Origin: Paracoccaceae bacterium
GTDB lineage: Bacteria; Pseudomonadota; Alphaproteobacteria; Rhodobacterales; Rhodobacteraceae
Reading direction: 5' to 3'
DNA length: 36,583 nucleotides
NCBI GenBank assembly: GCA_024227755.1
Contig: JAAEUB010000142.1
Location: forward strand, 1-36,583
How positions within the stretch are numbered: position 1 is the stretch's first letter; every line of letters starts with the position of its first letter. A program made the translations under genes and the position numbers. Positions 9,606 to 35,305 of the stretch are shown here, one piece after another. The notes beneath the pieces are model-generated. The model searched no databases, was not told the origin of the DNA, and worked only from the letters and a program-made list of their open reading frames with translations.

Positions 9606-10319
9606 ATGCGATTGGTTGCAAACCTCTTTGTCCTGCTCATTTGGGCGGGAACGTCTATCACGGCAACACATGCCGGTGAGCGGCCATTGGTCGTGGTTGA
9701 GCTTTTCACCTCGCAAGGCTGTTCTTCGTGCCCGCCCGCGGATGCTCTTTTGGCCCGTCTGGCCGAACGCGACGACGTTCTGGCGTTGGCTTTGCATGTT
9801 GATTATTGGGATTATATCGGTTGGGCCGATGCTTTTGCGCGGCCTGAACACACGGCGCGCCAGAAGGCCTATTCCCATGTTGCGGGCATGCGCTCGATCT
9901 ATACACCGCAGATGGTTATTGCGGGCTCCGACCATGTGATCGGCTCTAAACCGATGGAGATTGCTGACTATATCGAGATGTTTCGCGATAAACCGGCGCA
10001 GGTCAGCATGATAGCGCACGAAAAGGGCGGTGTTTTAAGCCTTGAGGCAAAGCCGGCCACACATGCACCTTTGCCGACCGAGATATTCGCGGTTCTGGTG
10101 CAGTTCACCGCGCTGGAAAACGTTAAGATTACCCGCGGCGAAAATGCTGGCCGCGATGTTGCCTATGTCAATGTGGTAACTGCGATGGAGAAGGTGGGGC
10201 ACTGGGACGGGCAGGGGATCTTGGCGCTTGAGACCCGGTTGGACGGTGATGGCCCCGCGGCGGTTTTCCTGCAGGCAGCCGGACCCGGTGAAATTCTGGC
10301 AGCGATGCGTGTGCGTTAG
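9606..10319 (+). CDS. DUF1223 domain-containing secreted protein
   Basis: N-terminal signal peptide; [45 protein letters not shown] is the DUF1223 (thioredoxin-like) signature. Confidence 0.9.
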
Positions 10320-11212
10320 GGTCCTTGATCCGATGAGGCGTGGCCAGCAGGCATCTGCCAGCGACGGTGCGCCCACAAATACTGGCCCATATTCGCCCGC
10401 ACCCGCGCCTCGAGGCTGTCATTGACTGCCTGCATCATGGTTTTGGGGTCGGAATGCGGGATTGGATCCTCGATCACTACCTGAAAATCCAATCCGTTTT
10501 GCTGCCTGATAGCATAGGCCGGGATCAAGACGGCGTCGTATTTCAGTGCCAGTTCAGCCGCCGAAAGAGGGGTCATGACCGGGTGGCCAAAAAAGCTCAG
10601 CTTTGCCCCGTCAAAGTCGCGCTGATCGGGTAGAAGTGCGATCATGTTGCCGGCACGCAAATGTCTGATCATGCCGCCCAGTCCGCGCCTGCCAACCGGA
10701 AAGGACGGCGCGGCAATTGCTTTTAGGTGGCTGGTATAATGGCGGTTAAAAAACACGTTTTTCATTGGCCGGTACAGCCCGCCCACCTGGTGGCCCGCGC
10801 GGCAGAACATAGCGCGCAGCACGTCGTAATTCCCAAAATGCCCGGAAACGGCGATGATAGGTTTTTGCGCCTCAAGCGCCGCTTCAAGTACGCTGACCCC
10901 GGGACCTTGCATTTCAAGGTTTTGGATGCGGTGGAAAAGGCCTTTGCGCGAATACATTTCGGCAACCATACGGCCAGCGTTGTTCGCCGCGGCGCGGCTG
11001 ATGCGAGCTATTTCATCGGCAGAGAGTTCCGGACAGACCCGGTCCAGGTTATCGCGCGCGCGCTTTGCATGCCCGGTTAACGGGGTCAGGACAGAGGAGG
11101 AAAGCCAGCCGTAAAAGGGGATGCGCCAGGTGTATGGCAGGATTTTTGGTGCGGTCAGAAGGAAGACCATCACAAGGTTGGTCAGCCATGCTCCCGGCCC
11201 CTTGTCTCGCAT
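10316..11212 (-). CDS. Lysophospholipid/lauroyl acyltransferase family protein (LpxL/HtrB-like)
   Basis: 298 aa; ISGHFGNYDVLRAMF-type HX4D/E region, LPDQRDFDGAKLSFFGHPVMTPLSAAELALKYDAVLIPAYAIRQ. Confidence 0.88.
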   Translation of the reverse strand: MRDKGPGAWLTNLVMVFLLTAPKILPYTWRIPFYGWLSSSVLTPLTGHAKRARDNLDRVCPELSADEIARISRAAANNAGRMVAEMYSRKGLFHRIQNLEMQGPGVSVLEAALEAQKPIIAVSGHFGNYDVLRAMFCRAGHQVGGLYRPMKNVFFNRHYTSHLKAIAAPSFPVGRRGLGGMIRHLRAGNMIALLPDQRDFDGAKLSFFGHPVMTPLSAAELALKYDAVLIPAYAIRQQNGLDFQVVIEDPIPHSDPKTMMQAVNDSLEARVRANMGQYLWAHRRWQMPAGHASSDQGP

Positions 11213-11321: not shown

Positions 11322-12431
11322 TTATTCATCCTCGGCGATCAGCAATATCTCACCCGACGCCTCAAGGTCGCGAATGGATCCGATAACGGCGTTCATCGCA
11401 GCCTCGCCTTCTGCCGCTTTCACATTGCCGAGATTTTCCATTTCTTCGCGCAATTGTTCGGCCATGCGTTTGGACATTGCACCAAGGATAAATTCGACGA
11501 CATCGGCAAGATCGTCGGTTGCGGTGGCAAGGGCGGTGATCAATTGGGCCTGATCGATGTCGCGGGTGATTTTTGGCACGTCTCGCGGGTCAATGCGTGA
11601 AGGGATATTGGCGAAGGTGAAAATTGCCTTGCGCACCTCCGAGGCAAAGGTGGCGTCGTCTTCGTCCAGCCCCTGCAATACCTCATCGCGGGTCGCTGCG
11701 GGCGAGAAGTTGAGGATTGCCCCGACCCGTTCGACCGGCCCGTCTGCGAACGCGCTGGCGGGCTGGGCGTCGAGCTGTTCAGCCAAAGAGCGACCAACTT
11801 TTTCCACTATTTCAGGCGATATTGAGCCGGTCAGGGACAGGGCATAGGCGATCTGGCGCGCCTTTTTTCCGGGCAGGTTGCCAAGAAGTTCCGCCGCCTT
11901 CGAGACTTTCAGCTTGGATAAGAGGACCGCCGCTATTTCCGTGCTTTCCTCCTCAAGCACCGGAAGCAGGCGGGCTGCGTCGAGACCGGCGATGGTATCC
12001 CATGGATTACCGGTTAGCTTGACCCCGCCCTGCCTGCGAATCCGTGTGGCAATAGCTTCGGAAATGGAGCCGTTGAGCACTGACAAGGCGCCTTCCAGCC
12101 CGCTGGGAAATGACAGGCCGATATCTTCGATCTCGCTGACAAATTCGTTAACCACGCAGCGCAAGGTGGCCCGGTTAACAAACCGCATTTGCGACATTTG
12201 CACGGTCAGTTCTTCCTGAATGTCATCGGGCAGCGAAGCAAGGTTGACCTCAACCCCTTCGGACAGAAGCAGGCGCACAATCACCGCGGCTTTCTTGCGT
12301 TTTGACAGACGCGCGTGCGAAGGCGCGCCGATATCAGCAGGCGCGCCAGCGAGGGCCGGAAGGTCGGCCCCGCCGCCGGGGTTTTCCCCCAATGTTGCCA
12401 AAGCGTTTGCCAGCGTAACCTCCCGCGTCAA
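11322..12431 (-). CDS. FliG-like flagellar motor switch protein (orphan)
   Basis: 369 aa; C-terminal VRKAIFTFANIPSRIDPRDVPKITRDIDQAQLITALATATDDLADVVEFILGAMSKRMAEQLREEMENLGNVKAAEGEAAMNAVIGSIRDLEASGEI matches the FliG C-domain layout. Confidence 0.8.
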   Translation of the reverse strand: MTREVTLANALATLGENPGGGADLPALAGAPADIGAPSHARLSKRKKAAVIVRLLLSEGVEVNLASLPDDIQEELTVQMSQMRFVNRATLRCVVNEFVSEIEDIGLSFPSGLEGALSVLNGSISEAIATRIRRQGGVKLTGNPWDTIAGLDAARLLPVLEEESTEIAAVLLSKLKVSKAAELLGNLPGKKARQIAYALSLTGSISPEIVEKVGRSLAEQLDAQPASAFADGPVERVGAILNFSPAATRDEVLQGLDEDDATFASEVRKAIFTFANIPSRIDPRDVPKITRDIDQAQLITALATATDDLADVVEFILGAMSKRMAEQLREEMENLGNVKAAEGEAAMNAVIGSIRDLEASGEILLIAEDE

Positions 12432-19308: not shown

Positions 19309-20202
19309 TTAGTTGGTCAGGTCTATTAAGATCCTGCGCCTGCGGATGCGTTTTGCCGTTTCATATGCCTTGGTGAACCAGAGCCGTAGACGATACCCAC
19401 GTCGGCCCGTTTTCAGGAGGCGATTAAACAAGGTGCTGTCAAGCTCGCCTTTGGCCGCCGCCTGAACAACTGCTGGCAGGACATTCATGCTGATCAAATC
19501 AATCTCGATATCCGAGCCAAAGTGACGGCAAGGCAGGGATCGTACATTCTTAGATTTGAAAAGTCTGGCATGCATGGCGTCTTCGCAAACCTCAGGGTCA
19601 AAGACGACAAATACCTGCCCCGCGTTTTCACACATTTCCGGGGCATAGCCATAGCGGTCGCTGAAAGAAACGTCGCGCATCGCCGGGAAGCGTTTGTCCC
19701 AATCGGCATGGGCCGGGTCAAGGGTTGCCTGCGGTGAGACAAGAATAATATCGGCACCCGTGGCCACGACCGAGAACGCCGCCGCAGCGTAACCACACAT
19801 ATCGGCGCCGTAGAAAACCACCCGGTCAAAATCTTCAAAAAACCCGTCGTCAACCAACCGGTCGAAGTAACCATAAACGAAGTGCGAGCGAAACCAGCTG
19901 TCCTGATGGGCGATGAGGCAAAGGCTGGACCAGTCCTGGCCCTCGCTTAAGCGCCAGCCCAGTGGTTTTCCGGAAGGGTCGTCGGCACGGATATCCTCGG
20001 CACGCTCGAAGGTGACGAGCAAGGTGGTACCTTCGTCGCTGAACACCACCGAGTGGTGCTTGCCGATGGGCTCAAAATAACCGCGCGTTTCACCTTGCTC
20101 TTCCAGCTGTTCCAGCCAATCGCTGAAACTTACCGGGTCGGTGTTCGCCGTGTCGGTTATTGCGCCAATGCCCATGGTTAACTCCTGTCTGTTTAGCTGC
20201 AT
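19309..20202 (-). CDS. Alpha/beta-hydrolase-fold-like conserved protein; homologs appear to be often annotated (probably wrongly) as phosphoadenosine phosphosulfate reductase in Rhodobacterales
   Basis: 297 aa; DRVVFYGADMCGYAAAAFSVVATGADIILVSPQATLDP resembles a nucleophile-elbow region; conserved-looking SFSDRYGYAPEMCENA ... CRHFGSDIE. Family call from recall only. Confidence 0.55.
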   Translation of the reverse strand: MQLNRQELTMGIGAITDTANTDPVSFSDWLEQLEEQGETRGYFEPIGKHHSVVFSDEGTTLLVTFERAEDIRADDPSGKPLGWRLSEGQDWSSLCLIAHQDSWFRSHFVYGYFDRLVDDGFFEDFDRVVFYGADMCGYAAAAFSVVATGADIILVSPQATLDPAHADWDKRFPAMRDVSFSDRYGYAPEMCENAGQVFVVFDPEVCEDAMHARLFKSKNVRSLPCRHFGSDIEIDLISMNVLPAVVQAAAKGELDSTLFNRLLKTGRRGYRLRLWFTKAYETAKRIRRRRILIDLTN

Positions 20203-20311
20203 ATTTTTGTTGGTTCATTTATGCGCAGCGAAAACGGGTCAAATAAGGGGGGATATGTGTCAATATCGGGGAAATGTGCGCACCAAATTGGCCATTGTTG
20301 CCAAGTTGGGA

Positions 20312-21355
20312 TCAATCCTTAGTTGTGTTAGCGGATTGTGCATGCTGGAACAGTCGTCGGGCCAATGCCACCGGCATGGGACGCGCCGACGGGGTCATGA
20401 TCAGACGACCAAGAAGGGCGCGGTTCGGTTCCTCTTTCAAAAGCTCGGCAAGGCGGGACTTTCGCCACGAAACCGCAGCCTCGTGCAGGCGCATAAGTTG
20501 TGGATCAGCCCGTAATTCGGCCAGCGGGCCATCGCGAAGCCTGTCTGCGGCGCGAATCGAGTTATCTTCGACCGCGCACCAATTGCGTTCGCTCCAATAA
20601 TCCAGCCCCAGCAAGTCGGCGTCATGTACCGCGCGGCCCCGGTCACGTTTCAGGATATAGCTTTCCATTGCGCCAAGCGGGTAGTGATTTAGCTGTACCA
20701 GCCCATAGTTTTTACGTCCGAAGGGCGAAAATATTTGTTTGCGGCGAAATCTGGGATCAAGCTCACGACCCTCGCCGTCATACCAGCGGGTTTTATCAAC
20801 CTCGCCATCGACTGGACTGCGGGGCCGGTGAACGCCCAGTTTTCCGTATGCACCGTTGTTTTTATAGAGTGTTTTGAACATGAAGGCGCGCCACGGCCAT
20901 GGCATTAGTTCGGGTGCAGCACGGGTGAAACTTTCGCTTACCGGAGCGTCAACATATTCAACTTGCCCGCAATTGCCAAACAGCCGCCAGGTCAGGGTGA
21001 TGGCGTCCGCCTTGGGCAGGGCGGCGATTAGCGCGCCAAGGGTGTTGTCGCCGGTGTGAATATTGACGAATTCGTCAATATCGAGGGTCAGCAGCCAGTC
21101 AGCGTTTTTAACCAACGGGTGCTTGTCTGCGGTCTTCAGGGCAGTCCATTGCACCCCTCCGGTATGAGGGCCATCGTTGCGAATGTGGCAAAGCCAGCCC
21201 ATTTCCTCAAGCCGGTCGAGCATGGCGTCGGTGCCATCATCGCAATCATTCGAGAAAACCAGAAAATCGGTAAAACCAATGCCCCGGTGATGGGCCAGCC
21301 ATTCAAGCACAAACGCGCCTTCGTTGCGTATGGTGAGAACGGCTGTGGCCTTCAT
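20312..21355 (-). CDS. Glycosyltransferase family 2-like protein (Glyco_tranf_2_4 / GT92-like)
   Basis: 347 aa; VLTIRNEGAFVLEWLAHHRGIGFTDFLVFSNDCDDGTDAMLDRLEEMG, LTLDIDEFVNI, LNHYPLGAMESYILKRDRGR. Confidence 0.88.
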   Translation of the reverse strand: MKATAVLTIRNEGAFVLEWLAHHRGIGFTDFLVFSNDCDDGTDAMLDRLEEMGWLCHIRNDGPHTGGVQWTALKTADKHPLVKNADWLLTLDIDEFVNIHTGDNTLGALIAALPKADAITLTWRLFGNCGQVEYVDAPVSESFTRAAPELMPWPWRAFMFKTLYKNNGAYGKLGVHRPRSPVDGEVDKTRWYDGEGRELDPRFRRKQIFSPFGRKNYGLVQLNHYPLGAMESYILKRDRGRAVHDADLLGLDYWSERNWCAVEDNSIRAADRLRDGPLAELRADPQLMRLHEAAVSWRKSRLAELLKEEPNRALLGRLIMTPSARPMPVALARRLFQHAQSANTTKD

Positions 21356-21357
21356 CC

Positions 21358-22107
21358 CTACCAGTCCTTCAAAAAGGCCACGACCTTTTTATTCGAGGGT
21401 TTGGGGAAGTAGGTCAGCCCAGCCTTATGCATGGCGTCAAAAACCGCCTTAACACCCTTTTGCCCGATCCATTGCGGGTGCAGCTCAATCACCGCGCCGC
21501 GAAGTGATGAAAGATCAGCATATGGCAGTATTTTCGCCTCGGCACCTTCAATGTCACAAACCAGAAAACTTGGTTTGATTTCTTTGAAAGTTGCTTTGAT
21601 CCCGCGCACCTCAATTTCTTCGACCGATATCACCGGGCTGTTTTTACCTTCTGGTTCTTCCTCCATGGATGAGGCAAGGAAGTTTTCACGGATGTAGAAA
21701 TTGGCCTTGCCTTTGCGTTGGCCAAGAAGAGCATTGTGAACCTCAACATTGTCCACATCGTTGGCTTCGTGCATATGCTTGATATGGGGGATAAGGGCTG
21801 GGTTGGCTTCAAAGGCATAAACCTTGGATACGTTGCGGTTTCGTGCCATGAAGGTGGACATATAGCCGATGCCAGCGCCCAGTTCGATCACCACATCTTC
21901 GGGCCGGACCATTGCCTTGACCGCTTCCACCTCGCGTCGTTCATAATTGCCCAATCTCAAGGCTCGACGGCGTTTCCGGTCGATAATACGGGTGTCATTG
22001 GGTATTCTCATTCCGCGCGAGCGGAAGAACTCGGGCGTACCTTTGGGGTGCTCAACCTGAAATGATGCCTGGGGCAAGTTATCTTTCATCCTGATGTCCT
22101 TTCTCAC
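21358..22107 (-). CDS. FkbM family methyltransferase
   Basis: 249 aa; VVIELGAGIGYMSTFMARNRNVSKVYAFEANPALIPHI ... FLVCDIEGAEAKILPY. Confidence 0.9.
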   Translation of the reverse strand: MRKDIRMKDNLPQASFQVEHPKGTPEFFRSRGMRIPNDTRIIDRKRRRALRLGNYERREVEAVKAMVRPEDVVIELGAGIGYMSTFMARNRNVSKVYAFEANPALIPHIKHMHEANDVDNVEVHNALLGQRKGKANFYIRENFLASSMEEEPEGKNSPVISVEEIEVRGIKATFKEIKPSFLVCDIEGAEAKILPYADLSSLRGAVIELHPQWIGQKGVKAVFDAMHKAGLTYFPKPSNKKVVAFLKDW

Positions 22108-22134
22108 TTACTACTTCACATTTTCAACAAAGAC

Positions 22135-24480
22135 CTAGTTGTCCATATCCAGAGCGAGTGAGAATGCCACGCGCTCCAATTCAGTCAGTTTTGTTTCCAG
22201 CGCCTGAGCATAAAGGTCCGAAAACTCAGGGTTTTGGTGCAACTCGGCAGCTTTTGCCTTGTGCCATGCCAGCCCCGCCTCGTGCAGCGCCAGTAAATCC
22301 GTATCTGCACACAGTCGCTCAAGTTCGGCGCGCAGGCGCGGGATGTTGCGTTTGATGGTGTTGTCGGGATTGTCCGACCAGTCCATGCGCACCCAGTAAT
22401 TGATGCCGATGGAGCGATCGACATGTAATGCGCGACCACGCTGGCGTTTTATCAGGTAACTTTCGGCCGAGCGCAGCGCATAATGGTTAAGCTGCAGCAG
22501 GTCATAGCCGACGGTTTTAAGGTTGCTGCGCCAGCCCTTGTCTTTCACTTCATCGCTTATCGGTTGTCCCGAGCCATTGACCCATGCAACCTTGCCGCGC
22601 TTACCTTCTTTCAGCTTATTAGGCCGGTGGCAGGACAGCTTTTCATAGGCACCGATGTTTTTGACCATCGCCTTGAAGCCCCAGACGATGTGCGGCTTGG
22701 GGCAGTGTTTTGGGGCGGCGTGGTCGAACTGGTCGATAACCAGCTTTTCGTTCAGTCGTGTGACGTTATTGTGACCAAACAGCCGCCAGGTCATCGCCAC
22801 GTTGGTGGCGTCTGGCACCCGTGCCAGAAAATCGTCGAGTGTGCCGTTACCAACGCGCACATTGATGAACTCATCCACGTCGATGTGAATGACCCATTCA
22901 GCGTTTTTAATCACGGGTTCGTTCAGTGACTGGTTCAGGGCGTATTGCTGTGGTGAATTACCCTTCCAGTTGTCGTTATTGCGGTGCTCAAGCACGCCAA
23001 GTTCCTGCAACCTGTCCAAAAGCTGGGAAGTGCCGTCGGAACAGGCATTGGTGTAGATGATGAAATTGTCGATACCGATGGACCGGTGATAGGCGACCCA
23101 TTCAAGAATGTATGGCGCCTCGTCCTTCATGCAGCCGACAATAACCTTGCCTGAATTTCCTTTTGGCAGGTCGCGGCGGGTGATTTCGCTATAGGGTGCT
23201 GCCAGTTCCGCCTCGTTCACCCGACCAGTATTGTTATGCGGGGCAAAGCGGCCACCGTTCAGGTCGGCAAAGTTTTCCTGTGCCTGTTTGCTCAGGAGCT
23301 TTTGCGCCACCGGGCTAAGGGTGGTTTCCTTCTCAGTTTCAATGCTTTCGCGTGTTTCCTTTAGCGCCGCGCGGGTGGAATTATTGATCCGAGGTAAAAT
23401 GGCGGTGACAAATTGGCTGGCCCGAAATCCTCTGGTGGCGTCAGCCTCGCTCCAGATCGGCAGGGCGCGGTCGCGTTTCAGGCTGTAGCGGGTCAATGCG
23501 CGGTGTTTTTTCAAAAGGGATCTGTTGCCCTTTTCAAAGTGCTTTGAGAAACCCACTAAAGTGCCAGGAGCAATCGGGTCGCCATCAACGCTGACCGAGG
23601 TTAAAAGCCGTCGCCAAAGTTGGCGCGGTATGATGCGGCCCTTGCCCAGAAGGGCGACCAGAAGGGTGTTTATTTGACGCATCCGTGCAAGGCTGGCAGC
23701 CGATAGCTGAGCGGGATGGTGAATATCAGATACTTTGCCAATATTATCAGTAATATCAAACGTTTCGCAGGTTTCTTTAACGATCAGATCACTGGTGAAG
23801 CATAACGGGTCGTAGGGGCGGAATGTCACGCTATCTGGTCCAAAAACCTGTTCCCAGGCATCCTGAAGCCCGACATAATCCAGCCAGAACGGGGGTGCCT
23901 GAATATCCGGGAAAGCATGGGCAGCAGGGTTGAATTCTTTCCACCCTTCCAATGCCAAATCATGCCAGCTTGCGCCAGCTTCCGGTTTCGTGCTGTCGGC
24001 CAACTCGATTTCCTGAGCCAGAGACGCGGTACGCCCGGAAAGTATGGCCTCGCCGTAATGGCGCGTTAAGACCCGCGCCTGTTCATCGAGATGGGCGACA
24101 ATAGTAATGTCGTCAGACAGAGGCAGTAATAGTGCGCGCAGCCGCTCAATGGCGCTTTTGGTGGGAAGGGTGCAAAGCTGCTCGGCTGACAGGATAAGCG
24201 TATGCGGATCGTGCTTGGCCACTTCGTCGGACAATTCGCGGGCAAGCTTCTCACGCAAGCTTTGTTGTTTTTCAGGCGTGGCAGCACCGCGGTTAAAACG
24301 CAGATTATCGACGTCGGCGGGGTCGCTGACCGCCATATAAAGCCGCGTATGGTTGGAGCCACCGGCCGCGCGTGGGAAAAGAATACCCTTTTTTGCCAGC
24401 AGATCGCGCTTTTCCTGCAACACCGCTTGGATGTCTTTAGCACCGCACTCGCTGAGGCCGATATGTAGGATAACTCTCAC
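22135..24480 (-). CDS. Two-domain protein: N-terminal divergent sulfotransferase-like domain fused to C-terminal family-2-like glycosyltransferase
   Basis: 781 aa; N-term MRVILHIGLSECGAKDIQAVLQEKRDLLAKKGILFPRAAGG resembles sulfotransferase 5-prime PSB region; C-term VIVGCMKDEAPYILEWVAYHRSIGIDNFIIYTNACSDGTSQLLDRLQELG, IHIDVDEFINVRVG, LNHYALRSAESYLIKRQRGR. Confidence 0.8.
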   Translation of the reverse strand: MRVILHIGLSECGAKDIQAVLQEKRDLLAKKGILFPRAAGGSNHTRLYMAVSDPADVDNLRFNRGAATPEKQQSLREKLARELSDEVAKHDPHTLILSAEQLCTLPTKSAIERLRALLLPLSDDITIVAHLDEQARVLTRHYGEAILSGRTASLAQEIELADSTKPEAGASWHDLALEGWKEFNPAAHAFPDIQAPPFWLDYVGLQDAWEQVFGPDSVTFRPYDPLCFTSDLIVKETCETFDITDNIGKVSDIHHPAQLSAASLARMRQINTLLVALLGKGRIIPRQLWRRLLTSVSVDGDPIAPGTLVGFSKHFEKGNRSLLKKHRALTRYSLKRDRALPIWSEADATRGFRASQFVTAILPRINNSTRAALKETRESIETEKETTLSPVAQKLLSKQAQENFADLNGGRFAPHNNTGRVNEAELAAPYSEITRRDLPKGNSGKVIVGCMKDEAPYILEWVAYHRSIGIDNFIIYTNACSDGTSQLLDRLQELGVLEHRNNDNWKGNSPQQYALNQSLNEPVIKNAEWVIHIDVDEFINVRVGNGTLDDFLARVPDATNVAMTWRLFGHNNVTRLNEKLVIDQFDHAAPKHCPKPHIVWGFKAMVKNIGAYEKLSCHRPNKLKEGKRGKVAWVNGSGQPISDEVKDKGWRSNLKTVGYDLLQLNHYALRSAESYLIKRQRGRALHVDRSIGINYWVRMDWSDNPDNTIKRNIPRLRAELERLCADTDLLALHEAGLAWHKAKAAELHQNPEFSDLYAQALETKLTELERVAFSLALDMDN

Positions 24481-25133
24481 TGGGTTACGCTTTCTTTGCC
24501 TGCCTGATCAGCGGGGCGGTTTCGATTGGCATTGGCAATGCCCCACCACGGCAGGTCACGGCCAATAAAGGCGGAAACTTTAGCTTTGGCATCGGGGTCT
24601 TCAATGCTATAGGCCAGAAAATCTTTCGAATTACCAAATACTTGCCGACAGAAGGCAGTATGACCTTCGATCCAGCGGATGCGGTCCCCGTCTGACTTTC
24701 CCCAGCCTGAGGGTAGTCCGGGAACCGAAGCTTTTGGCAGGCGGCTGCGGCCCAGATTTGACCAGCGCCCTATCGAGTCTGACATTTCGGCCGCGTCACG
24801 AATTGTCAGGATGAACTTGGCGCCGGGATGGTGCGCGCGGATCGCGGATATCAGCCCCCAATCGGTTTGCGGCCACAGGTTCAGCCCCTCGCGGACAATG
24901 TCAATCTCGCTGAAGGCGTCAAATTCCTCCATCATTGCCAAGGGGTCGCCGGTATTGAAATACCCGCGATACATCAGGCGCCCGACAAAGGCGCGCTTGA
25001 GGCGATCACCATCGCTTTGCCCGGCCCGGATGCGCCAGTCTGCGACCCTCAGCCCGGCCTCGGAAAGTGCTTTGCCCAGAGAGGTGGTGCCAGATTTCGG
25101 CAATCCCAGATTTATCACCCTAAGCCGCGCCAT
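24477..25133 (-). CDS. Sulfotransferase family protein
   Basis: 218 aa; VINLGLPKSGTTSLGKALSEAGLRVADWRI is a canonical PAPS-binding loop; 3-prime region GAKFILTIRDAAEMSDSIGRW; 4-nt overlap with the downstream gene. Confidence 0.85.
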   Translation of the reverse strand: MARLRVINLGLPKSGTTSLGKALSEAGLRVADWRIRAGQSDGDRLKRAFVGRLMYRGYFNTGDPLAMMEEFDAFSEIDIVREGLNLWPQTDWGLISAIRAHHPGAKFILTIRDAAEMSDSIGRWSNLGRSRLPKASVPGLPSGWGKSDGDRIRWIEGHTAFCRQVFGNSKDFLAYSIEDPDAKAKVSAFIGRDLPWWGIANANRNRPADQAGKESVTQ

Positions 25134-26161
25134 CAGGTCAGCTCCAGCAATTCAAGCAGGGCCTGTTCTTTTTCGCCAATCGCTGAGGCCGTCAAAAGCT
25201 GAGACCGCATTTCCTGATATTCCGGCTGCGCCAGTAATTCGTCGCGCTTGGCAATATGAAGCGCCACTGTTTTTGCGTGCAGCTTGGCGATTTCAGGCTC
25301 TGCTAAAAGCGCCTTCATCTCTTTCTTAAGTCTGGGCAACAGACGCTGGATCGAAGTTTCATGCCACCCGGCATCATTGCGCTCGCGCCAATAAAGGTCG
25401 TCAAAGGCCCGGTTTTCACGGTTCACATCGCCGCGGTCATTCTTGACCATATAACTGTCGAGCGAACGCAGCGCATAGTGGTTCAAAGTGGCAAAGTCGC
25501 GTGCGCCCTGGGCTGGAAATTTGCGGATACGGTTCTTGTTGGCGGCGGCGCGAAACTTCCACTGCACCTCGCGGCCCGAGCCATCCGTCCAAACGGGCCG
25601 GTCCTCTTTAGCGACGTCTTTTTTGATGAAGGGTCGGTGCGCACCGATATACGCCATTGGAAAGTCTTTACGAAACAGGGTTTTAACTTCGATGGCTGTT
25701 TGGTCGGTCCAGATATCCGGGTTGTGGGTCTTGGTGAATTGTCCGATCACAGGGCGATCTTCAAACGCCTCGATGCCTTGATTTGCAAAGAACTGGAATG
25801 TGACAGATATGGCATGTGGGTTTTTGCAGGCCGCAATCAGTTCGGGAATTGTGCCTTTTCCTCCATGAATGTTCAAAAACTCATCGACATCGGCGACCCA
25901 GACCCAGTCGGCCTGTCTTACCACCTTTTGCTTGCGCGCGTCTTTAAGCGCCTCCATCTGGTAGGCGCGGCCCTGGGCCGGATTGGGCAAGTGCTGAACA
26001 ATTCCGCGCGCCGCTAAGGCGTCCAGCAATGTGTCGGTTCCATCCGTGCAATCATTTGAATAAAAAAGGAAATCCGTGACGCCAATCAGGCGGTTGAAGG
26101 CAATCCATTCGATCAGGAACGGGCCTTCGTTTTTCACACAGGTTACCGCGGTGATGCGCAT
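25133..26161 (-). CDS. Glycosyltransferase family 2-like protein (Glyco_tranf_2_4 / GT92-like)
   Basis: 342 aa; AVTCVKNEGPFLIEWIAFNRLIGVTDFLFYSNDCTDGTDTLLDALAARG, WVADVDEFLNIHGG, LNHYALRSLDSYMVKNDRG. Confidence 0.88.
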   Translation of the reverse strand: MRITAVTCVKNEGPFLIEWIAFNRLIGVTDFLFYSNDCTDGTDTLLDALAARGIVQHLPNPAQGRAYQMEALKDARKQKVVRQADWVWVADVDEFLNIHGGKGTIPELIAACKNPHAISVTFQFFANQGIEAFEDRPVIGQFTKTHNPDIWTDQTAIEVKTLFRKDFPMAYIGAHRPFIKKDVAKEDRPVWTDGSGREVQWKFRAAANKNRIRKFPAQGARDFATLNHYALRSLDSYMVKNDRGDVNRENRAFDDLYWRERNDAGWHETSIQRLLPRLKKEMKALLAEPEIAKLHAKTVALHIAKRDELLAQPEYQEMRSQLLTASAIGEKEQALLELLELT

Positions 26162-26381
26162 TACACCGCCCCCGATCTGACTATAGTCATTCGCATATTA
26201 CTGCCCGCCCTTGATGCCGGTTGTCCCGGTCTAACGCGTGATTGTTGCCAATACATGTGACAGTTTGCGCCATTTAGGTCAATATTTGCCTAAACGTGAA
26301 CAATCGACTGTTGCCTATAGGTTGGCGGTGCTTGACCCTGCGGCGTTCGCGTGGCCTGATCAGGCAAAACGGGGGCGAATA

Positions 26382-27287
26382 ATGAGCGATATTCCTGAAA
26401 CGATCGAAGCCACGCAGGCTTTGCTGGCGGCGCAGTCATATGTGTGTGACCGGCCCTTGGCAATCGTGGTTTTCCTTGCGCTCAAACTGGGGCGGCCATT
26501 GTTTCTGGAGGGCGAGGCCGGGGTCGGCAAAACCGAGATTGCCAAGGCGTTGGCGGCAGGTTTGGGGCGGCGATTGATCCGTCTGCAATGTTATGAGGGG
26601 CTGGACGCGGCCAGTGCCGTTTATGAGTGGAATTTTGCAGCTCAGATGGTGGCAATCCGCGCCGCTGAGGCTTCAGGCACCGGTGGGGAGGCGTTAAAGA
26701 CACAGCTTTTTTCCGACGAGTTCCTGATCCGTCGCCCCTTGTTGGAAGCAATGAGCCCGCAAGAGGGCGGCGCGCCGGTGCTGCTGATTGACGAACTTGA
26801 CCGCACCGATGAGCCCTTTGAGGCGTTTTTGCTTGAGGCTTTGTCGGATTTTCAGGTGACCATTCCCGAACTTGGTGCAATCAAGGCCCCCGAGCCGCCG
26901 ATCGTCATCCTGACTTCCAACCGCACTCGCGAGGTGCATGATGCCCTTAAGCGGCGCTGTCTTTATCATTGGGTCGAGTATCCGTCATTTGCCCGCGAGA
27001 TGGAAATCCTTGCCGCACGCGCGCCCGAGGCGTCAGAAAAACTGAGCCGCGAGGTTGTGGCGTTCGTACAAGCGTTGCGCCATGAGGACATTTTCAAACG
27101 CCCCGGCGTGGCCGAGACTATCGACTGGGCCAAATGCCTGCTGGCGCTTGACATGATCGAGCTTAGCCCGGATGTGATTGCCGACACTTTAGGCGCAATC
27201 TTGAAGTATCAAGACGACATAGCACGGCTTTCGGGCGGGGAAGCGGCGCGGATATTGAATGAGGCCAAACAAAGGCTTGCACCGTGA
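26382..27287 (+). CDS. MoxR/CoxD-like AAA+ ATPase
   Basis: From MSDIPETIEATQALLAAQSYVCDRPLAIVV; GRPLFLEGEAGVGKTEIAKALAAGLGRRLIRLQCYEGLD, LLIDELDRTDEPFEAFLLE; next to a CoxE-like gene. Confidence 0.9.
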   Translation: MSDIPETIEATQALLAAQSYVCDRPLAIVVFLALKLGRPLFLEGEAGVGKTEIAKALAAGLGRRLIRLQCYEGLDAASAVYEWNFAAQMVAIRAAEASGTGGEALKTQLFSDEFLIRRPLLEAMSPQEGGAPVLLIDELDRTDEPFEAFLLEALSDFQVTIPELGAIKAPEPPIVILTSNRTREVHDALKRRCLYHWVEYPSFAREMEILAARAPEASEKLSREVVAFVQALRHEDIFKRPGVAETIDWAKCLLALDMIELSPDVIADTLGAILKYQDDIARLSGGEAARILNEAKQRLAP

Positions 27288-27296
27288 AACCGGCGC

Positions 27297-27339
27297 AAAA
27301 TTCTTCAAAGAATTTTGGTAAGAAAATTCGAATTTTCTT
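27297..27339. repeat. TTCGAA-type double palindrome, copy B (moxR-coxE junction), inverted relative to copy A
   Basis: Near-perfect AAAATTCTTCAAAGAATTTT (27297-27316) plus the same perfect AAGAAAATTCGAATTTTCTT (27320-27339) seen at 18085. Confidence 0.85.
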
Positions 27340-27362
27340 GCCTGCCTTGCGGGGGGTGGACA

Positions 27363-28610
27363 TTGCCTGAATATCCGGCCCTTGATCTGCCTGAAAACCC
27401 GCGTCTAACCGCCAATCTTACCCATTTCGCCCGTGCGTTAAGGGCCGCCGGGTTGCCGGTGGGTCCAGGCAAGGTGATCGAGGCGGCGCGGGCGGTGGCG
27501 GCCGCTGGGTTTTCTGAACGCCGCGACTTTTTCTGGGTACTGAACGCGGTTTTTGTTTCGCGCCCTGAACACAGGGCGGTATTTGCCCAGGTCTTTCGTC
27601 TGTTCTGGCGTGACCCGCGATATCTTGAACACATGATGGCAATGATGCTGCCTGCAATTCGTGGTGTGGCCGAAGAACGCGTGACCAAGCCTGCAGAAAA
27701 GCGCGCCGCCGGGGCGCTTTTGGATGGGGTGGAGCGTGATGCGCCGGATCTGCCGGAAGGTGAGGCGACGGAGCTTGAAATCGACGCTTCGCTGACAATG
27801 TCGGAACAAGAACGCCTGCGCAGCCTTGATTTTGAACAGATGGACATGGCTGAAATGGCCGAGGCGAAACGCATGCTGGCGCGGCTGGCTTTGCCGGTGC
27901 CGCCGCTGATCTCGCGCCGCTATCAGGCGACCCACAGGGGCCACAGCCCGGATTGGCGCCGAACCTTGCGTCAGGCGATGCGCTACGGTGGCGAAGTGCA
28001 GGATTTTGCCCGTAAAAACCACCGGATACGCTGGCCGAACCTTGTGGTCCTGTGTGACATTTCAGGGTCGATGTCGGCCTATAGTCGCGCGGTTTTGCAT
28101 TTCCTGCATGCGGTTTCAAACCATAAAGGAGCGGGATGGGCGCGTGTTCATGGCTTTACCTTTGGCACGCGGCTGACAAATATCACCCGCCATCTGGCCA
28201 CCCGTGATGTGGATGCAGCACTGGCCGCTGCCGGGGCCATGGCGCAAGACTGGGAAGGTGGCACACGCATCGGCGACTGCCTGCATGCCTTCAACCGCGA
28301 CTGGTCGCGCAGGGTGTTGGGGCAGGGGGCGGTATTGATCGTCATCACGGACGGGTTGGAGCGCGGTGACCCGGTGCAACTGGCCCGGGAAATGCAGCGC
28401 CTGCACCTGTCCGCCCGTCATCTGATCTGGCTTAATCCGTTGCTGCGCTGGGATGAATTTGCCCCCAAAGCTGCCGGTATCCGCGCCATGTTGCCTCATG
28501 TGGATGCCTTTCGCGCAGGGCATAATATTGCTGCACTTGAAGGGCTGGCCGAGGCAATTTCACGCCCGGCTGATGCGGGCGAAAAGGCACGTTTGATGGC
28601 GATGCTTTGA
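27363..28610 (+). CDS. VWA-domain CoxE-like protein
   Basis: LPEYPALDLPENPRLTANLTHFARALRAAGLPVGPGKVIEA ... LVVLCDISGSMSAYSRAVLHFLHAV (MIDAS DxSxS); TTG start proposed because the track start at 27315 lies inside the palindrome. Confidence 0.88.
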   Translation: MPEYPALDLPENPRLTANLTHFARALRAAGLPVGPGKVIEAARAVAAAGFSERRDFFWVLNAVFVSRPEHRAVFAQVFRLFWRDPRYLEHMMAMMLPAIRGVAEERVTKPAEKRAAGALLDGVERDAPDLPEGEATELEIDASLTMSEQERLRSLDFEQMDMAEMAEAKRMLARLALPVPPLISRRYQATHRGHSPDWRRTLRQAMRYGGEVQDFARKNHRIRWPNLVVLCDISGSMSAYSRAVLHFLHAVSNHKGAGWARVHGFTFGTRLTNITRHLATRDVDAALAAAGAMAQDWEGGTRIGDCLHAFNRDWSRRVLGQGAVLIVITDGLERGDPVQLAREMQRLHLSARHLIWLNPLLRWDEFAPKAAGIRAMLPHVDAFRAGHNIAALEGLAEAISRPADAGEKARLMAML

Positions 28611-28696
28611 AGTAGACCCGTTTGGCCGTGCATTTGGTTGGACGCCCGCACTTTTCCTCTCTTGCAACCACCGCGCCGCTGCGCCACCTTGGTTTT

Positions 28697-29665
28697 ATGA
28701 GCGAGATAAACGACATTCCCGAAAAGGCACTGATCTGGCACCGTGACGGGCGCGGTGCGGTTTTGGCCACTGTAGTACAGACCTGGGGATCAGCTCCGCG
28801 CCCGGTCGGCAGCCAATTGGCGATCAGTGGCAAAGGCGAGATTGCCGGCTCGGTCTCGGGCGGTTGTGTCGAGGGCGCGGTGGTTGTCGAAGCGCAGGAA
28901 GCGCTGGGCGACGGGCGTTCGCGGGTTCTGGAATTTGGCGTTTCCGACGACGAGGCCTTTGCCGTCGGGCTGGCATGTGGAGGCAAAATCAGGGTGCTGG
29001 TTGAGCCGGTTGGGGCCGGATTGAGCGAGGAGATACTGACGCAGCTGGTCGAGGCACGAACAAAACGTATTCCGGTGGCCTATGTGGTTGATACGGGAAA
29101 CTGGACGCGGGCAATTGTGGATACGGGATCATATCCCGAGCGTTTTCGCGCCGACAAGTCCGGCTTTGAAGCTGACGAGTTCACGTTTGTCGCCATTCAC
29201 AACCCACCCCTGCGGATGATCGTGGTGGGGGCGGTCCATATCGCACAGGCCCTGATACCGATGGCACAACTGGCGGGGTATGATGTGACATTGATTGACC
29301 CGCGCGCGGCTTTCGCAACGCCCGAGCGATTTAAGGGGGTTCAGATTGAGGTCGATTACCCCGACGAGGTGCTGGCGGGTTTCGGGCTGGATGCGCGATC
29401 GGCCATGGTCACCCTTTCACACGACCCCAAAATTGATGATCCGGGGATCATCGCGGCCCTGCAATCAGACGTTTTTTATCTGGGCTGTCTTGGCTCAACC
29501 CGCACCCATGCCAAACGGGTGGCGCGACTGGAAACTGCGGGTTTCAAAGCTGATGCGATTGCGCGGATACATGCGCCTGTTGGGCTTGATCTCGGCTCGC
29601 GCACTCCGGCCGAGATTGCCCTTTCGGTGATGGCTGAGATTACCCAAAGCCTCAGGCGCGGCTGA
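28697..29665 (+). CDS. XdhC/CoxI family protein
   Basis: From MSEINDIPEKALIWHRDGRGAVLATVVQTWGSAPRPVGSQLAISGKGEIAGSVSGGCVEGAV ... YLGCLGSTRTHAKRVARL. Confidence 0.92.
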   Translation: MSEINDIPEKALIWHRDGRGAVLATVVQTWGSAPRPVGSQLAISGKGEIAGSVSGGCVEGAVVVEAQEALGDGRSRVLEFGVSDDEAFAVGLACGGKIRVLVEPVGAGLSEEILTQLVEARTKRIPVAYVVDTGNWTRAIVDTGSYPERFRADKSGFEADEFTFVAIHNPPLRMIVVGAVHIAQALIPMAQLAGYDVTLIDPRAAFATPERFKGVQIEVDYPDEVLAGFGLDARSAMVTLSHDPKIDDPGIIAALQSDVFYLGCLGSTRTHAKRVARLETAGFKADAIARIHAPVGLDLGSRTPAEIALSVMAEITQSLRRG

Positions 29666-30642
29666 TGCGGTTTGGCCCGGTACCTTTGCTCGATGCGAAA
29701 GGCGCGGTGCTGGCGCATTCAGTGGCCATAAAGGGCGGTCGGCTGCGCAAAGGAATTGTCCTAACAGCCAAACATTTGGAGACTCTTGCCGAAGCGGGGG
29801 TGCAAAAGGTCACGGTGGCGCGGCTTGAGCCGGGCGATGTGGGCGAAGATGCGGCCGCGACCCGGTTGGCGACAGCCTTGAAGGGCGCGGGGCTTCGCGC
29901 CTCAAAGGCTTCGACCGGGCGGGTAAATCTATACGCTGAGGCTGCTGGTATTTTGCAGGTTGATCGAAGCGCTGTGAATGCGCTTAACCAAGTTGAGCCG
30001 ATGATCACCTTGGCAACCTTGCCACAGTGGCGACGGGTGGAGGCGGGCGGTCTGGTGGCGACGGTCAAGATCATATCCTATGCAGTGCCAGAGGTGGGAT
30101 TGAAGCAGGCATGCAAGGCTGCTTTGGGTGCCGTCCGGCTTCGCCAGCCCGTATTCTCCAAGGTGTCGCTGGTTCAAACAATGGTGGGCGAGGGGGACGG
30201 TGAAAAGGGGCGCCGCGCGCTTGTCACCAGACTTGAGCGTTTGGGCGTAGAGCTTGTGTCCCACGATCTTGTGCCCCACGAGATCGAGGCTTGCAGCCGA
30301 GGGCTGAGCCGGGCTGGAGGCGAGGTTTTATTTGTCCTGACTGGGTCTGCGACCTCTGACATTCACGACATCGCACCCGAAGCTTTGCGCGCGGCAGGGG
30401 GCAAGGTCACCCATTTTGGTATGCCGGTAGATCCCGGTAACCTGTTGTTTATTGGTGAGTTAAACGGCAAACCAGTGATCGGCCTGCCGGGTTGCGCGCG
30501 ATCGCCTGCGTTAAACGGGGCCGATTGGGTGATGGAACGTATTTTGTGTGGTGTTCCGATTGGTGGCGAGGATATTGCCGCGATGGGCGTGGGTGGATTG
30601 CTGAAAGAAATGCCGTCGCGTCCTTACCCCCGCGAGGGATAG
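29665..30642 (+). CDS. Molybdopterin-binding protein (MoCF_biosynth-like)
   Basis: 325 aa; overlaps the xdhC stop as TGATG; GGEVLFVLTGSATSDIHDIAPEALRAAGGKVTHFGMPVDPGNLLFIGELNGKPVIGLPGCARSP. Confidence 0.85.
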   Translation: MRFGPVPLLDAKGAVLAHSVAIKGGRLRKGIVLTAKHLETLAEAGVQKVTVARLEPGDVGEDAAATRLATALKGAGLRASKASTGRVNLYAEAAGILQVDRSAVNALNQVEPMITLATLPQWRRVEAGGLVATVKIISYAVPEVGLKQACKAALGAVRLRQPVFSKVSLVQTMVGEGDGEKGRRALVTRLERLGVELVSHDLVPHEIEACSRGLSRAGGEVLFVLTGSATSDIHDIAPEALRAAGGKVTHFGMPVDPGNLLFIGELNGKPVIGLPGCARSPALNGADWVMERILCGVPIGGEDIAAMGVGGLLKEMPSRPYPREG

Positions 30643-30650
30643 CGTGAGGT

Positions 30651-30681
30651 AGCGCTATCAAAATGAGTGGCTTCGCCACGC
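30651..30681 (+). repeat. Copy 2 of the 31-nt dispersed hairpin repeat
   Basis: AGCGCTATCAAAATGAGTGGCTTCGCCACGC, 29/31 identical to 6453-6483; hairpin GTGGC-TTC-GCCAC. Confidence 0.75.
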
Positions 30682-30820
30682 TGGTTTCTGATTGGTGCCA
30701 AACCCGAATCTTGCATTTTTACTGCGACATTCTGGCAGGATTTCTATTCCCTTAAGGCCAAAGTCGTGTTTAACTTGATGAAAACAAGAAAAGACAAAAG
30801 AAAAGACATGGGAGAAAAAT

Positions 30821-31303
30821 ATGACACAGGTCTCAATGACCGTGAACGGCAAGGCTGTTTCGGTCGAAGCTGAAGGAAACACCCTTTTATCGACATTTCT
30901 GCGTGAGGGGCTGGGGATGACCGGCACTCATGTTGGCTGTGACACCAGCCAGTGTGGCGTTTGCGTGGTGCATGTGAACGGCCGCCCGGTGAAAAGCTGC
31001 AATATGTTTGCTGCCGAGGCCGAGGGCGCTGAAGTTGCCACGATCGAGGGGATGGCGAACGAAGATGGCTCTCTAGGTGTCATTCAGCAGGCGTTTCAGG
31101 ACAATCACGGGCTGCAATGCGGGTTTTGCACACCAGGCATGGTGATGTCGGCGGCCGCGCTTTTAGCCGAAAACCCAAAACCCAGCGAGGCCGAGATCCG
31201 CGCCTATCTCAGCGGTAACCTGTGTCGCTGTACGGGGTATCACAATATTATCAAATCAATTCTGGCAGCGTCCGGACAAGAGATGAAGGTGGCAGCAGAA
31301 TGA
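30821..31303 (+). CDS. coxS: CO-dehydrogenase-like [2Fe-2S] small subunit (CoxS-like)
   Basis: 160 aa; [24 protein letters not shown] and [17 protein letters not shown] ... [12 protein letters not shown], the two [2Fe-2S] motifs. Confidence 0.93.
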
Positions 31304-31665
31304 AGCATTTTCCTATACTCCACGTCGCAGCATTGTCGCTTTTGTTACCGTTCACCGCATCGCAGGGTCTGGCCGAGGGTTGGTCGGTATATGACCTTGG
31401 CGAAATGGCTGATCGCGAAACCTGTAAGAGCAAGGCGCGCAATGTCATCAACTCCTATATCTTCAAATACGGCGGGGGCAATACGTCCGAGGCCAGCTGG
31501 TCAGTGTACGGCTATGACCTGGAGCCGGGAGATCAGGATGCGGTCATTATGTGTCCGTGGGTTCCCGGCGGCGGGGTCATGGCCATTTTGAATGTGCACG
31601 GGGAAACCAGTGATGAACAACGTATCTTTACTGCCGATACGATTGATCTGTTCTGGAACAAATAA
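31300..31665 (+). CDS. Small secreted protein of unknown function embedded between coxS and coxL
   Basis: ATG at 31300 overlaps the cox[57 protein letters not shown]... has a clear signal peptide (SQGLAEG cleavage region). Confidence 0.8.
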
Positions 31666-31717
31666 TGCGCAACCGGCCTGTCAGGCCATGGATTAGCGCA
31701 AAAAGGGAGGATTACAC

Positions 31718-34093
31718 ATGCCAGCAGACGGCACAGCAAACGGCGGCATAGGAGCTGCAACCAAGCGGCGCGAGGATGTCCGGTTTTTAACCGGCAAGGG
31801 AAATTATACCGACGACATCAATATGCGCGGACAGGCCTATGTGGTTTTCGTGCGTTCTCAGGTCGCCCACGGCGTCTTGAACGGCGTTGATACCGCAGAC
31901 GCGTCCGCAATGCCCGGTGTAATCCGGGTATTCACCGGCGCAGATTTCGCCGAGGTGGGCGGGGTGCCCTGTGGCTGGTGTGTTACCGACAAGCATGGTG
32001 AACCGATGCAGGAACCCAAGCACCCGGTGCTGGCCGAGGGCAAGGTGCGCTATGTCGGCGATGCCATTGCTGCTGTGGTTGCCGAAACCGAAAGCCAGGC
32101 ACGCGATGCGGCCGAGGCGGTCGCTGTTGACATCGAAGAATTGCCCGCCGTGGTTGATATGAAGGCAGCTTTGGTTGAAGGCAGCACCAAGGTGCACGAC
32201 GATTTAGGCTCAAACCTTTGTTATGACTGGGGTTTTGTTGAAGAGAACAAGGATGCGGTTGAGCAGGCGATGTTCAGTGCGGCCCATGTGACGACGCTGG
32301 AGCTGGTCAATAACCGGCTGATTGCCAATGCGCTGGAGCCTCGGGTTGCGATTGGTGACTATAATTCTGCGGCTGGTGATTCGACGCTTTATACAACCAG
32401 CCAGAACCCGCATGTGATCCGCCTGTTGATGGGCGCGTTTGTGCTGGGCATTCCCGAACATAAGCTGCGCGTCGTTGCCCCGGATGTGGGCGGTGGATTT
32501 GGCTCGAAGATCTTCCACTATGCGGAAGAGGCTTTTTGCACCTTTGCCGCGAAGGCGTTGAATATGCCGGTGAAATGGACCGCGCAACGTTCAGAAAGCT
32601 TTATCACTGATGCGCATGGGCGTGACCATGTGACCAAGATTGAACTGGCCTTGGACGAGGATAACAATTTCACCGCCGTGCGCACCGAAACTTACGCCAA
32701 TATGGGGGCCTACCTTTCGACCTTCGCGCCAAGTGTGCCGACATGGCTGCACGGCACATTGATGGCCGGGAACTATAAGACCCCGGTGATTTATGTGAAC
32801 GTCAAGGCGGTCTTCACCAACACGGTGCCGGTCGATGCTTACCGCGGTGCCGGGCGACCCGAGGCCAGTTTCCAGTTGGAACGTGTCATCGACAAGGCAG
32901 CGCGCGAACTGGGCGTTGATCCCATTGCGCTTAGGCGCCACAACTTCATTACCGAGTTTCCTTATGCGACCCCGGTGGCGGTGGAATATGACACCGGTGA
33001 CTATAACGCCACCATGGATAAGCTTGAGGAGATCGGTGATCTTTCGGGCTTTGAGGCGCGCCGCGCCGCCAGTGCCGAAAAGGGGCTTTTGCGCGGGCTT
33101 GGGGTCAATTGCTACATTGAAGCCTGCGGTATTGCGCCTTCTAGCCTTGTTGGCCAATTGGGCGCGCGCGCCGGACTTTATGAAAGCGCGACCGTAAGGG
33201 TCAACGCCACCGGCGGTCTGGTGGTAATGACCGGCAGCCATAGTCACGGGCAAGGTCACGAAACCGCCTTTCCACAAGTGGTGGCCGATATGATCGGGAT
33301 TGATGCAAGCATGGTCGAGATCGTGCACGGCGATACTGCCAATACACCGATGGGCATGGGGACTTACGGGTCCCGGTCCCTGGCGGTAGGCGGAAGTGCG
33401 ATGGTCAAAGCGACCGAGAAGATCATTGCCAAGGCCAAAAAAATAGCGGCCCACCTGATGGAGGCCGCCGATAGTGATATTGAGCTCAAGGATGGTCAGT
33501 TCAGTGTTGCCGGCACCGACAAATCTGTGGCCTGGGGCGATGTTACCCTGGCTGCTTATGTGCCGCATAATTACCCGCTGGAAGAGATAGAGCCGGGGCT
33601 GGAGGAAACCGCGTTTTACGACCCGGCCAATTTCACCTATCCCGCCGGTGCCTATGCCTGCGAGGTCGAAGTTGATCCCGAGACCGGTAAGGTCAGTATC
33701 GCCAGCTTTGCGGCGGCAGATGACTTTGGCAATATTGTCAATCCGATGATCGTTGACGGTCAGGTGCATGGCGGCATAGGTCAGGGTATCGGTCAGGCGC
33801 TGCTGGAACACGCGGTTTATGACGAGGATGGCCAGTTGCTAAGCGGCTCTTTCATGGATTATGCCATGCCGCGTGCTGATGATGTGCCGTTTTATACCGT
33901 TGATCATTCCTGTCAGACACCGTGTACGCATAACCCCCTGGGGGTGAAAGGCTGCGGCGAAGCAGGTGCAATTGGCAGCCCGCCGGCGGTGGTCAATGCC
34001 GTTGTCGACGCGCTGCAAAGGGCAGGCCACGACATCACCCATATCGACATGCCACTTTCGCCATCGCGCGTTTGGTCAGCAATTAATTCCTGA
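31718..34093 (+). CDS. coxL: CO-dehydrogenase-like molybdopterin large subunit, form II type (CoxL-like)
   Basis: 791 aa; active-site-loop motif [18 protein letters not shown] (form II AYRGAGR, not form I AYXCSFR); [30 protein letters not shown]. Confidence 0.93.
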
Positions 34094-34105
34094 GGAGGAC
34101 GAGAC

Positions 34106-34891
34106 ATGTATGCATTCGACATAAAACGGCCTTCCAAGCTGAAAAAAGCCAGGAAGATATTGAAGAAAAATGAAGGCGCGCAGGTTTTGGGCGGTGGTCA
34201 AACCCTGATCCCAACCCTGAAACAACGTCTTGCTGCACCTTCGGCGCTGGTCTCATTGGCCCGGATTGACGAGCTGAAAGGCATCAGGCAAAAAGGTGAC
34301 GAGTTGATCATCGGTGCCGCTTCAACACACGAGGAAGTGGCGGCAGATGGCACCATCGCGGCGCTTTCTTCGCTTGCCGGTGGCATTGGAGATCCGGCCG
34401 TGCGCGCTCGTGGAACCATTGGCGGCTCGCTTGCCAATAATGATCCGTCGGCCTGTTATCCGGCAGCGGCTTTGGGGCTTTGTGCCACCATTGTCACCAA
34501 CAAGCGCAAGATCTCGGCAGATGAGTTTTTCACGGGGCTGTTCGAGACAGCTTTGCGCGACGGTGAAATCATCAAAGCCGTAAACTTCCCGATACCAGAA
34601 GCTGCGGCCTACGAAAAGTTTGACCAGCCCGCCAGCCGCTTTGCGCTGGTAGGTGTCTTTGTCTCGCAATGCAAAGGCGATGTACGGGTAGCGGTAACCG
34701 GAGCTTCGGAAGACGGAGTATTTCGCTGGGCTGACGCCGAAGCGGCGCTGGCCGAAAACTTCAACCCAGCCGCACTTGAAGGGCTTTCTGTCGATCCCGC
34801 AGGGATGATCGCCGACATACATGGCAGCCCGGAATACCGGGCGCATCTGATTGGCGTGATGGCCAAAAGGGCAGTGGCCGCAGCGGGCTGA
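34106..34891 (+). CDS. coxM: CO-dehydrogenase-like FAD-binding medium subunit (CoxM-like)
   Basis: 261 aa; [33 protein letters not shown] and [26 protein letters not shown] (FAD-binding motifs). Confidence 0.93.
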
Positions 34892-34894
34892 AGC

Positions 34895-35305
34895 TTGGCT
34901 GTGATCGCTGATATCTGGGGCAGCTTTCGTCGGTTGCCCCTTTGGGTGCAGGTCTGGGTGGCGTTGATACTGGTGCCGGTGAATTTGGCGTCGCTTGCAT
35001 TTGTGGGGCTTGCAGACGGGCGATGGGTCGCGTTGTTTGCGGTTGGTGGGATGCTACCAAATGTTGCCATCATGATCCGAGAGCGTGGGTTATCAAAAGC
35101 CATGGCGCTGCCTCATCTGGTGATTTGGATTCCATTGGTCGGAGTGGTCGCGTGGATCTTGCTGATGTATCGGTTATTTGGATCGGAGCCTTCCACCAAT
35201 TTCATGACATTTCTCATGTTGCTCTTGGTAACCGATTTGATCTCACTTGGCTTTGATGTTCCGGACGCTTGGAAATGGTGGAAAGGGTCGCGCGATATCG
35301 CCTGA
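34895..35305 (+). CDS. Small polytopic membrane protein, downstream of coxM
   Basis: 136 aa; multiple hydrophobic segments; TTG start 3 nt after the coxM stop implies cotranscription. Confidence 0.65.
   Translation: MAVIADIWGSFRRLPLWVQVWVALILVPVNLASLAFVGLADGRWVALFAVGGMLPNVAIMIRERGLSKAMALPHLVIWIPLVGVVAWILLMYRLFGSEPSTNFMTFLMLLLVTDLISLGFDVPDAWKWWKGSRDIA

Follow-up and report, generated by a model that had tools for sequence, protein, structure and literature searches.

What would a bacterium assemble with three glycosyltransferase domains, a sulfotransferase, a methyltransferase and two protein domains that look like enzymes stripped of their active sites? The question is raised by six minus-strand open reading frames (ORFs) at positions 26161..19309 of a 36,583-nucleotide stretch of Paracoccaceae bacterium DNA (contig JAAEUB010000142.1, assembly GCA_024227755.1), the whole of which is called the window below. 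We consider it probable that these genes form a conserved operon whose products build, in the cytoplasm, a short surface glycan that is sulfated and variably methylated, helped by two non-catalytic domains. The proposal builds on gene content, synteny, co-occurrence, gene overlaps and motif loss, all of which were observed directly. The features of the locus are as follows.

25133..26161, minus strand: GT1, PF13704/GT92-like glycosyltransferase (GT) of 342 amino acids (aa) by Pfam; first gene of the operon
24477..25133, minus strand: ST, sulfotransferase of the type that uses 3'-phosphoadenosine 5'-phosphosulfate (PAPS), 218 aa; phosphosulfate-binding (PSB) loop NLGLPKSGTT intact; Pfam Sulfotransfer_4
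22135..24480, minus strand: the fusion, 781 aa; predicted N-terminal pseudo-sulfotransferase (residues ~1-400) and C-terminal PF13704 GT (residues ~440-781)
24427..24465, minus strand: degenerate PSB loop of the fusion, HIGLSECGAKDIQ; canonical relatives have HIGLEKTGSTSIQ
21358..22107, minus strand: FkbM-family methyltransferase, 249 aa (TIGR01444); variable member of the operon
20312..21355, minus strand: GT2, PF13704 glycosyltransferase, 347 aa (Pfam), in a separate tree clade
20176..20311, minus strand: spacer 5' of LAST, a long gap kept in relatives (median 114 nt, 62 loci)
19309..20175, minus strand: LAST, degenerate alpha/beta-hydrolase-fold protein, 288 aa; a longer ORF starts at 20202

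A Conserved Chromosomal Locus

The source genome is a draft Rhodobacteraceae assembly of 539 contigs. Relatives of the locus were surveyed in 150 sampled genomes, nearly all from different genera, and in 80 named contigs. The fusion is present in about 50 of the 150 genomes. By sequence comparison, roughly one in three of the sampled Rhodobacteraceae genera has the cluster at a fixed place, inherited for the most part vertically. Most carriers share the order dnaB, pyrE, pyrC, LAST, GT2, (FkbM), fusion, ST, GT1, followed by a divergent AAA gene and coxE. The same order is found on the 80 named contigs, which include Tritonibacter, Phaeobacter, Sulfitobacter, Tateyamaria, Maritimibacter, Thalassovita, Pelagimonas and Salipiger. 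Tritonibacter mobilis carries the locus (L137). Among the 80 relatives GT1 is present in 78, ST in 77, GT2 in 74, LAST in 62 and FkbM in 49, several of the absences being contig ends.

The packing of the genes is conserved along with their order. In the window the ORFs are closely spaced except for the last one: GT1 and ST have one base in common (25133), ST and the fusion overlap by 4 bp, and gaps of 27 bp (22107/22135), 2 bp (21355/21358) and, 5' of the last ORF, 109 bp follow. In relatives, GT1 and ST overlap in 66/74 cases and ST and the fusion in 73/76 (by 1 or 4 nt, a zero gap being scored as overlap). An earlier sequence-only reading of this DNA had given the same coordinates, strand, overlaps and gaps for the six ORFs, and the operon-like packing it described recurs in the relatives.

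Fusion and ST also travel together. Both occur in 47 genomes, the fusion alone in 3, ST alone in 1 and neither in 99 (Fisher p=4e-34, uncorrected for phylogeny), so that the two are found together in 47 of the 51 genomes having either. ST is relocated in 4 genomes, yet its pairing with the fusion is retained.

Over 60 loci, the mean identities of the C-terminal half of the fusion (0.80) and of GT1 (0.76) resemble those of the neighboring pyrC (0.78) and coxE (0.75); those of ST and the N-terminal half of the fusion are both 0.53, and that of FkbM is 0.49. For five of the six genes, distances correlate with those of housekeeping genes at Mantel r = 0.49-0.63 (0.51-0.58 for pyrE and coxE); FkbM has the lowest value (r = 0.28). 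These identities and correlations point to a mainly vertical core with a more labile methyltransferase. A horizontally acquired O-antigen-like island was considered for this type of cluster and rejected, given the fixed order and flanks and distances that track housekeeping genes. In the plasmid collection there was no match to ST and none spanning 80% of the fusion.

Other genera carry different cassettes at the same site, with GT32-like/hydrolase fusions and a fusion GT whose N-half is unrelated, LAST being kept (L177, L179, L182); the GT32-like label denotes weak sugar-transferase matches (Gb3_synth, Gly_transf_sug, Caps_synth). In two of these fusion GTs (L182:8707-10989, L177:9811-12210) the differing N-half of ~390 aa could be a GT domain that has degenerated (E=0.02 in a self-match). 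Proteins of 1049-1742 aa (L192:2538-7766, L193:6113-9262, L194:4861-9087) combine at least one GT32-like domain with a PF13704 GT and with an alpha/beta-hydrolase domain that is intact; they adjoin a degenerate LAST gene and, in L192 and L194, also a canonical-loop sulfotransferase. In one genome (L196) LAST stands alone between AAA and pyrC. In another (G009, locus L078) the fusion and pyrC each appear split over two frames, probably through sequence errors or decay.

A Pseudo-Sulfotransferase Fused to a Glycosyltransferase

The N-terminal half of the fusion has no Pfam match, and 0/30 fusion homologs scanned match a sulfotransferase model. Its predicted structure (predicted local distance difference test, pLDDT, 92) has as best Foldseek match the sulfotransferase 3rnl (E=1e-3, probability 1.00, template modelling (TM) score 0.48), NDST1 ranking second and 3-OSTs being among those that follow. 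BLASTP aligns it at E=3e-23 with an alphaproteobacterial protein whose loop is intact (L209), placing HIGLSECGAKDIQ opposite HIGLEKTGSTSIQ and AHLDEQARVLTRHY opposite VFLRRQDRLAVSRF, and a profile of its family also hits several HIGxxKTGT proteins.

Fold and homology are therefore those of a sulfotransferase, as the sequence-only reading had suggested for this half. What that reading had not captured is the loss of the residues that hold PAPS. The PSB Lys is retained in 1/63 fusion homologs, the PSB Thr/Ser is lost too, and the Arg of the second, 3'-phosphate motif is D/E in 62/63. Judged by these motifs, the N-half is a pseudo-sulfotransferase joined to a GT, with the PAPS-binding residues lost in essentially all 63 homologs. 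Activity of this half as a sulfotransferase is disfavored, since both PAPS motifs are gone.

A relocated ST of 511-522 aa (L088:3198-4766, L089:8385-9938, L090:8059-9594) bears a second, sulfotransferase-fold-like domain at its C-terminus. It adjoins a PBP1A-type gene in L088 and L089, and an amidase gene as well in L089. We make no claim that this C-terminal domain is another pseudo-sulfotransferase, as 2/3 copies keep RTG.

LAST, a Degenerate Hydrolase

LAST matches no Pfam or NCBIfam family. Its predicted model (pLDDT 86.8) has 290 PDB matches at E<=0.001; the matches listed are alpha/beta hydrolases (E ~1e-6; TM 0.4-0.5), the Neisseria capsule O-acetyltransferase 6yuo giving the highest target-normalised TM among them, 0.52. 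At the nucleophile position of the elbow FYGA[G/D]xCGY, Gly stands in 46/49 sequences, Asp in 3/49 (window included) and Ser in 0/49, and the column of the catalytic His is unconserved. Going by the modelled fold, LAST is an alpha/beta-hydrolase-fold protein whose catalytic residues have been lost. The sequence-only reading had named the families of the other five genes correctly and left this sixth one unnamed.

In homologs from other clusters, which are often joined to a GT32-like or PF13704 domain, the motifs GASMGG[YF] and [LM]GH[RQ]L are kept. In Paracoccus albus a sulfotransferase carries a fused LAST-like domain, and on P. inhibens pPGA1_65 a pyruvyltransferase does. These fusions to PF13704, GT32-like, sulfotransferase and pyruvyltransferase domains tie the LAST-like domain to glycan work.

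Public records label LAST homologs 'phosphoadenosine phosphosulfate reductase'. We rejected this assignment, as LAST has no Pfam/NCBIfam match and its fold is that of alpha/beta hydrolases, not of adenine-nucleotide alpha hydrolases; the name is a propagated annotation that needs correction. On plasmid p2 of Thioclava sp. GXIMD4216 (L198), three LAST-family genes adjoin a sulfatase-like gene, together with genes labelled formylglycine-generating enzyme and PAPS reductase, the latter label probably being wrong.

The start of LAST is probably the ATG at 20175 and not 20202, because it is preceded by an AGGAG and because Met10 of the longer ORF hardly varies among relatives. With this start the GT2-LAST gap is 136 bp, and since a long gap is conserved here, LAST may be under its own promoter. 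Promoter and terminator scans gave no signal above chance, and no RNA families or tRNAs were found in the window.

Glycosyltransferases, Catalytic Sulfotransferase and Methyltransferase

Profile searches confirmed the three PF13704 GTs, the one PAPS-type sulfotransferase and the one FkbM protein that had been predicted from the ORFs. Sequence searches against solved structures found no relative. The GTs match PF13704 with E=5e-19, 1e-22 and 1e-21 and scores of 69.1, 80.5 and 77.4 bits (curated cut-off 27.5). GT2 and the fusion are 35% and 29% identical to GT1, and the three form three supported tree clades, each spanning genera, which places the duplications before the divergence of the compared genera. 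The earlier description of the GTs as diverged paralogs thus agrees with the tree, and the common motifs it quoted are real in a looser form (DEAPY...YHR...NF in the fusion, AFNR in GT1).

ST belongs to Sulfotransfer_4 (E=7e-9), and its 5'-PSB loop is intact as NLG[LF]PK[ST]GT in 77/77 relatives. An APS kinase is encoded in the genome, so a PAPS supply exists outside the window. The FkbM protein scores 75.2 bits with TIGR01444 (E=7e-21, cut-off 37.7) and 41.1 bits with PF05050 (cut-off 22.7).

Proposed Pathway and Alternatives

In the pathway that we propose, we infer the substrates, the order of steps, the acceptor and what the degenerate domains do. In the cytoplasm, an acceptor would receive one sugar from each of the three GT domains (GT1, that of the fusion and GT2). 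ST, with its intact motif, would sulfate the chain from PAPS, and FkbM would O-methylate it where present. The pseudo-sulfotransferase half would perform no chemistry and probably keeps either ST or the acceptor, whether already sulfated or open to sulfation, beside the GT; such docking could couple sulfation to extension. LAST may have been retained as a glycan- or partner-binding pathway protein, and the product would be exported by machinery encoded elsewhere. Sulfation and methylation stand as the likely chemistry, as the sequence-only reading held; the pathway does not always include methylation, given the FkbM counts above. That reading also pointed to the lack of an export gene. The six genes indeed match no such family, but the argument is weak: two Poly_export (Wza-type) genes and one Wzy_C (WaaL-like) gene elsewhere in the genome mean that export routes exist outside the window.

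More speculatively, the N-domain of the fusion could be a docking or sensing module that binds ST or reads the sulfated acceptor, the GT then extending only correctly sulfated chains; with LAST as a glycan-binding dead hydrolase, the pathway would be gated by two pseudoenzymes. We put this version forward tentatively, as an unlikely one.

Several points weigh against the proposed pathway. Three fusion-bearing genomes are without ST, Foldseek gives modest TM-scores (0.48 with the sulfotransferase, 0.4-0.5 with hydrolases), and the fusion-ST co-occurrence statistic ignores shared ancestry. The suggested roles of the degenerate domains are read from motif loss, and enzyme activity and glycan structure are predictions from the genes.

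The acceptor may be lipopolysaccharide (LPS), capsule, a glycolipid or a protein. A cluster that specifically decorates the LPS core or O-antigen, like rhizobial LPS sulfation, is possible, though we lean against it. Vertical inheritance and two GTs at housekeeping-level conservation would suit a core structure; the genome has a Wzy_C/WaaL-like gene, and a lipid A acyltransferase gene lies ~8-9 kb away. Neither the cluster nor its conserved flanks, however, contain an LPS-core gene, the neighbors being pyrimidine, dnaB and carbon monoxide (CO) dehydrogenase-like genes. Production or decoration of an exopolysaccharide or capsule for attachment we regard as similarly doubtful. In its favor, the LAST-like/pyruvyltransferase fusion of P. 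inhibens pPGA1_65 lies near polysaccharide export and sugar-nucleotide genes, and the genome has the two Poly_export genes; polymerase, flippase and initiating sugar transferase are nevertheless absent from the six genes and from the conserved gene order. The locus does not resemble a Wzx/Wzy or ABC capsule/O-antigen cluster: the six genes match no flippase, polymerase or export family, and the flanks are pyr/dnaB and cox-like genes.

It is improbable that the N-domain of the fusion and LAST work as enzymes through unusual catalytic residues, such as Cys136 of LAST. LAST has many invariant polar residues (D202, D208, H211, R171, R176, R183) and the N-domain has invariant R, N, Q and W residues. 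Cys136, present in 43/49 LAST homologs, is however G or A in 6/49, and the fusion is without both PAPS motifs.

Sets of GTs and methyltransferases are common in protein glycosylation, and all six proteins appear cytoplasmic and soluble. Glycosylation of flagellin, a pilin/adhesin or a similar protein is nonetheless very improbable here, as no target protein gene is linked to the locus, and a P. inhibens motility screen, in a strain whose carriage of the locus is unconfirmed, identified eight essential genes that lie beyond the flagellar cluster and include no glycosyltransferase (PMC12363192).

Neighboring Genes

Window positions 26238-36583 hold a CO-dehydrogenase-like/molybdenum hydroxylase cluster, divergent from the operon, with AAA, coxE-like, XdhC, MoCF_biosynth, Fer2 and FAD_binding_5 proteins; the AAA gene probably starts at ATG 26383, not at GTG 26238. 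At 10316-11212 and 11322-12431, a lipid A acyltransferase-like gene lies beside fliG, ~8-9 kb off the operon.

Significance and Comparison with Known Systems

Roseobacters are abundant in the sea and attach to algae. A fixed locus of this kind predicts a sulfated, variably methylated glycan as a surface feature common to dozens of genera, with GT domains conserved like housekeeping neighbors. If the gated version holds, two pseudoenzymes would control a glycan pathway in bacteria. The conserved fusion and the degenerate hydrolase offer concrete tests of how pseudoenzymes organize glycan assembly. A full-text search of open papers found no study of this locus.

All three GT domains exceed the cut-offs of PF13704 Glyco_tranf_2_4 / PF01697 GT92 and keep the D-x-D motif (D[IV]DEF) of these families, from whose members the locus differs in having one GT fused to a pseudo-sulfotransferase. 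LAST has the fold of alpha/beta-hydrolase glycan O-acetyltransferases and esterases such as Neisseria 6yuo, to which Asp2-like proteins are a further comparison. In contrast to these enzymes it has neither the nucleophile Ser nor the conserved His, whereas its fused homologs keep GASMGG and LGHRL. The N-half of the fusion is homologous to bacterial sulfotransferase-fold proteins with the loop HIGxxKTGTTxLQ but, unlike them, is without the PSB Lys, the Thr/Ser and the 3'-phosphate Arg. ST itself resembles PAPS-dependent sulfotransferases (PF17784, PF13469) in its PSB loop and in a conserved SxRD region, and the rhizobial LPS sulfotransferase LpsS is a functional analogue. ST differs from such enzymes in being encoded away from LPS loci, within a GT operon, and in being paired with a domain of homologous fold that is without the PAPS motifs.

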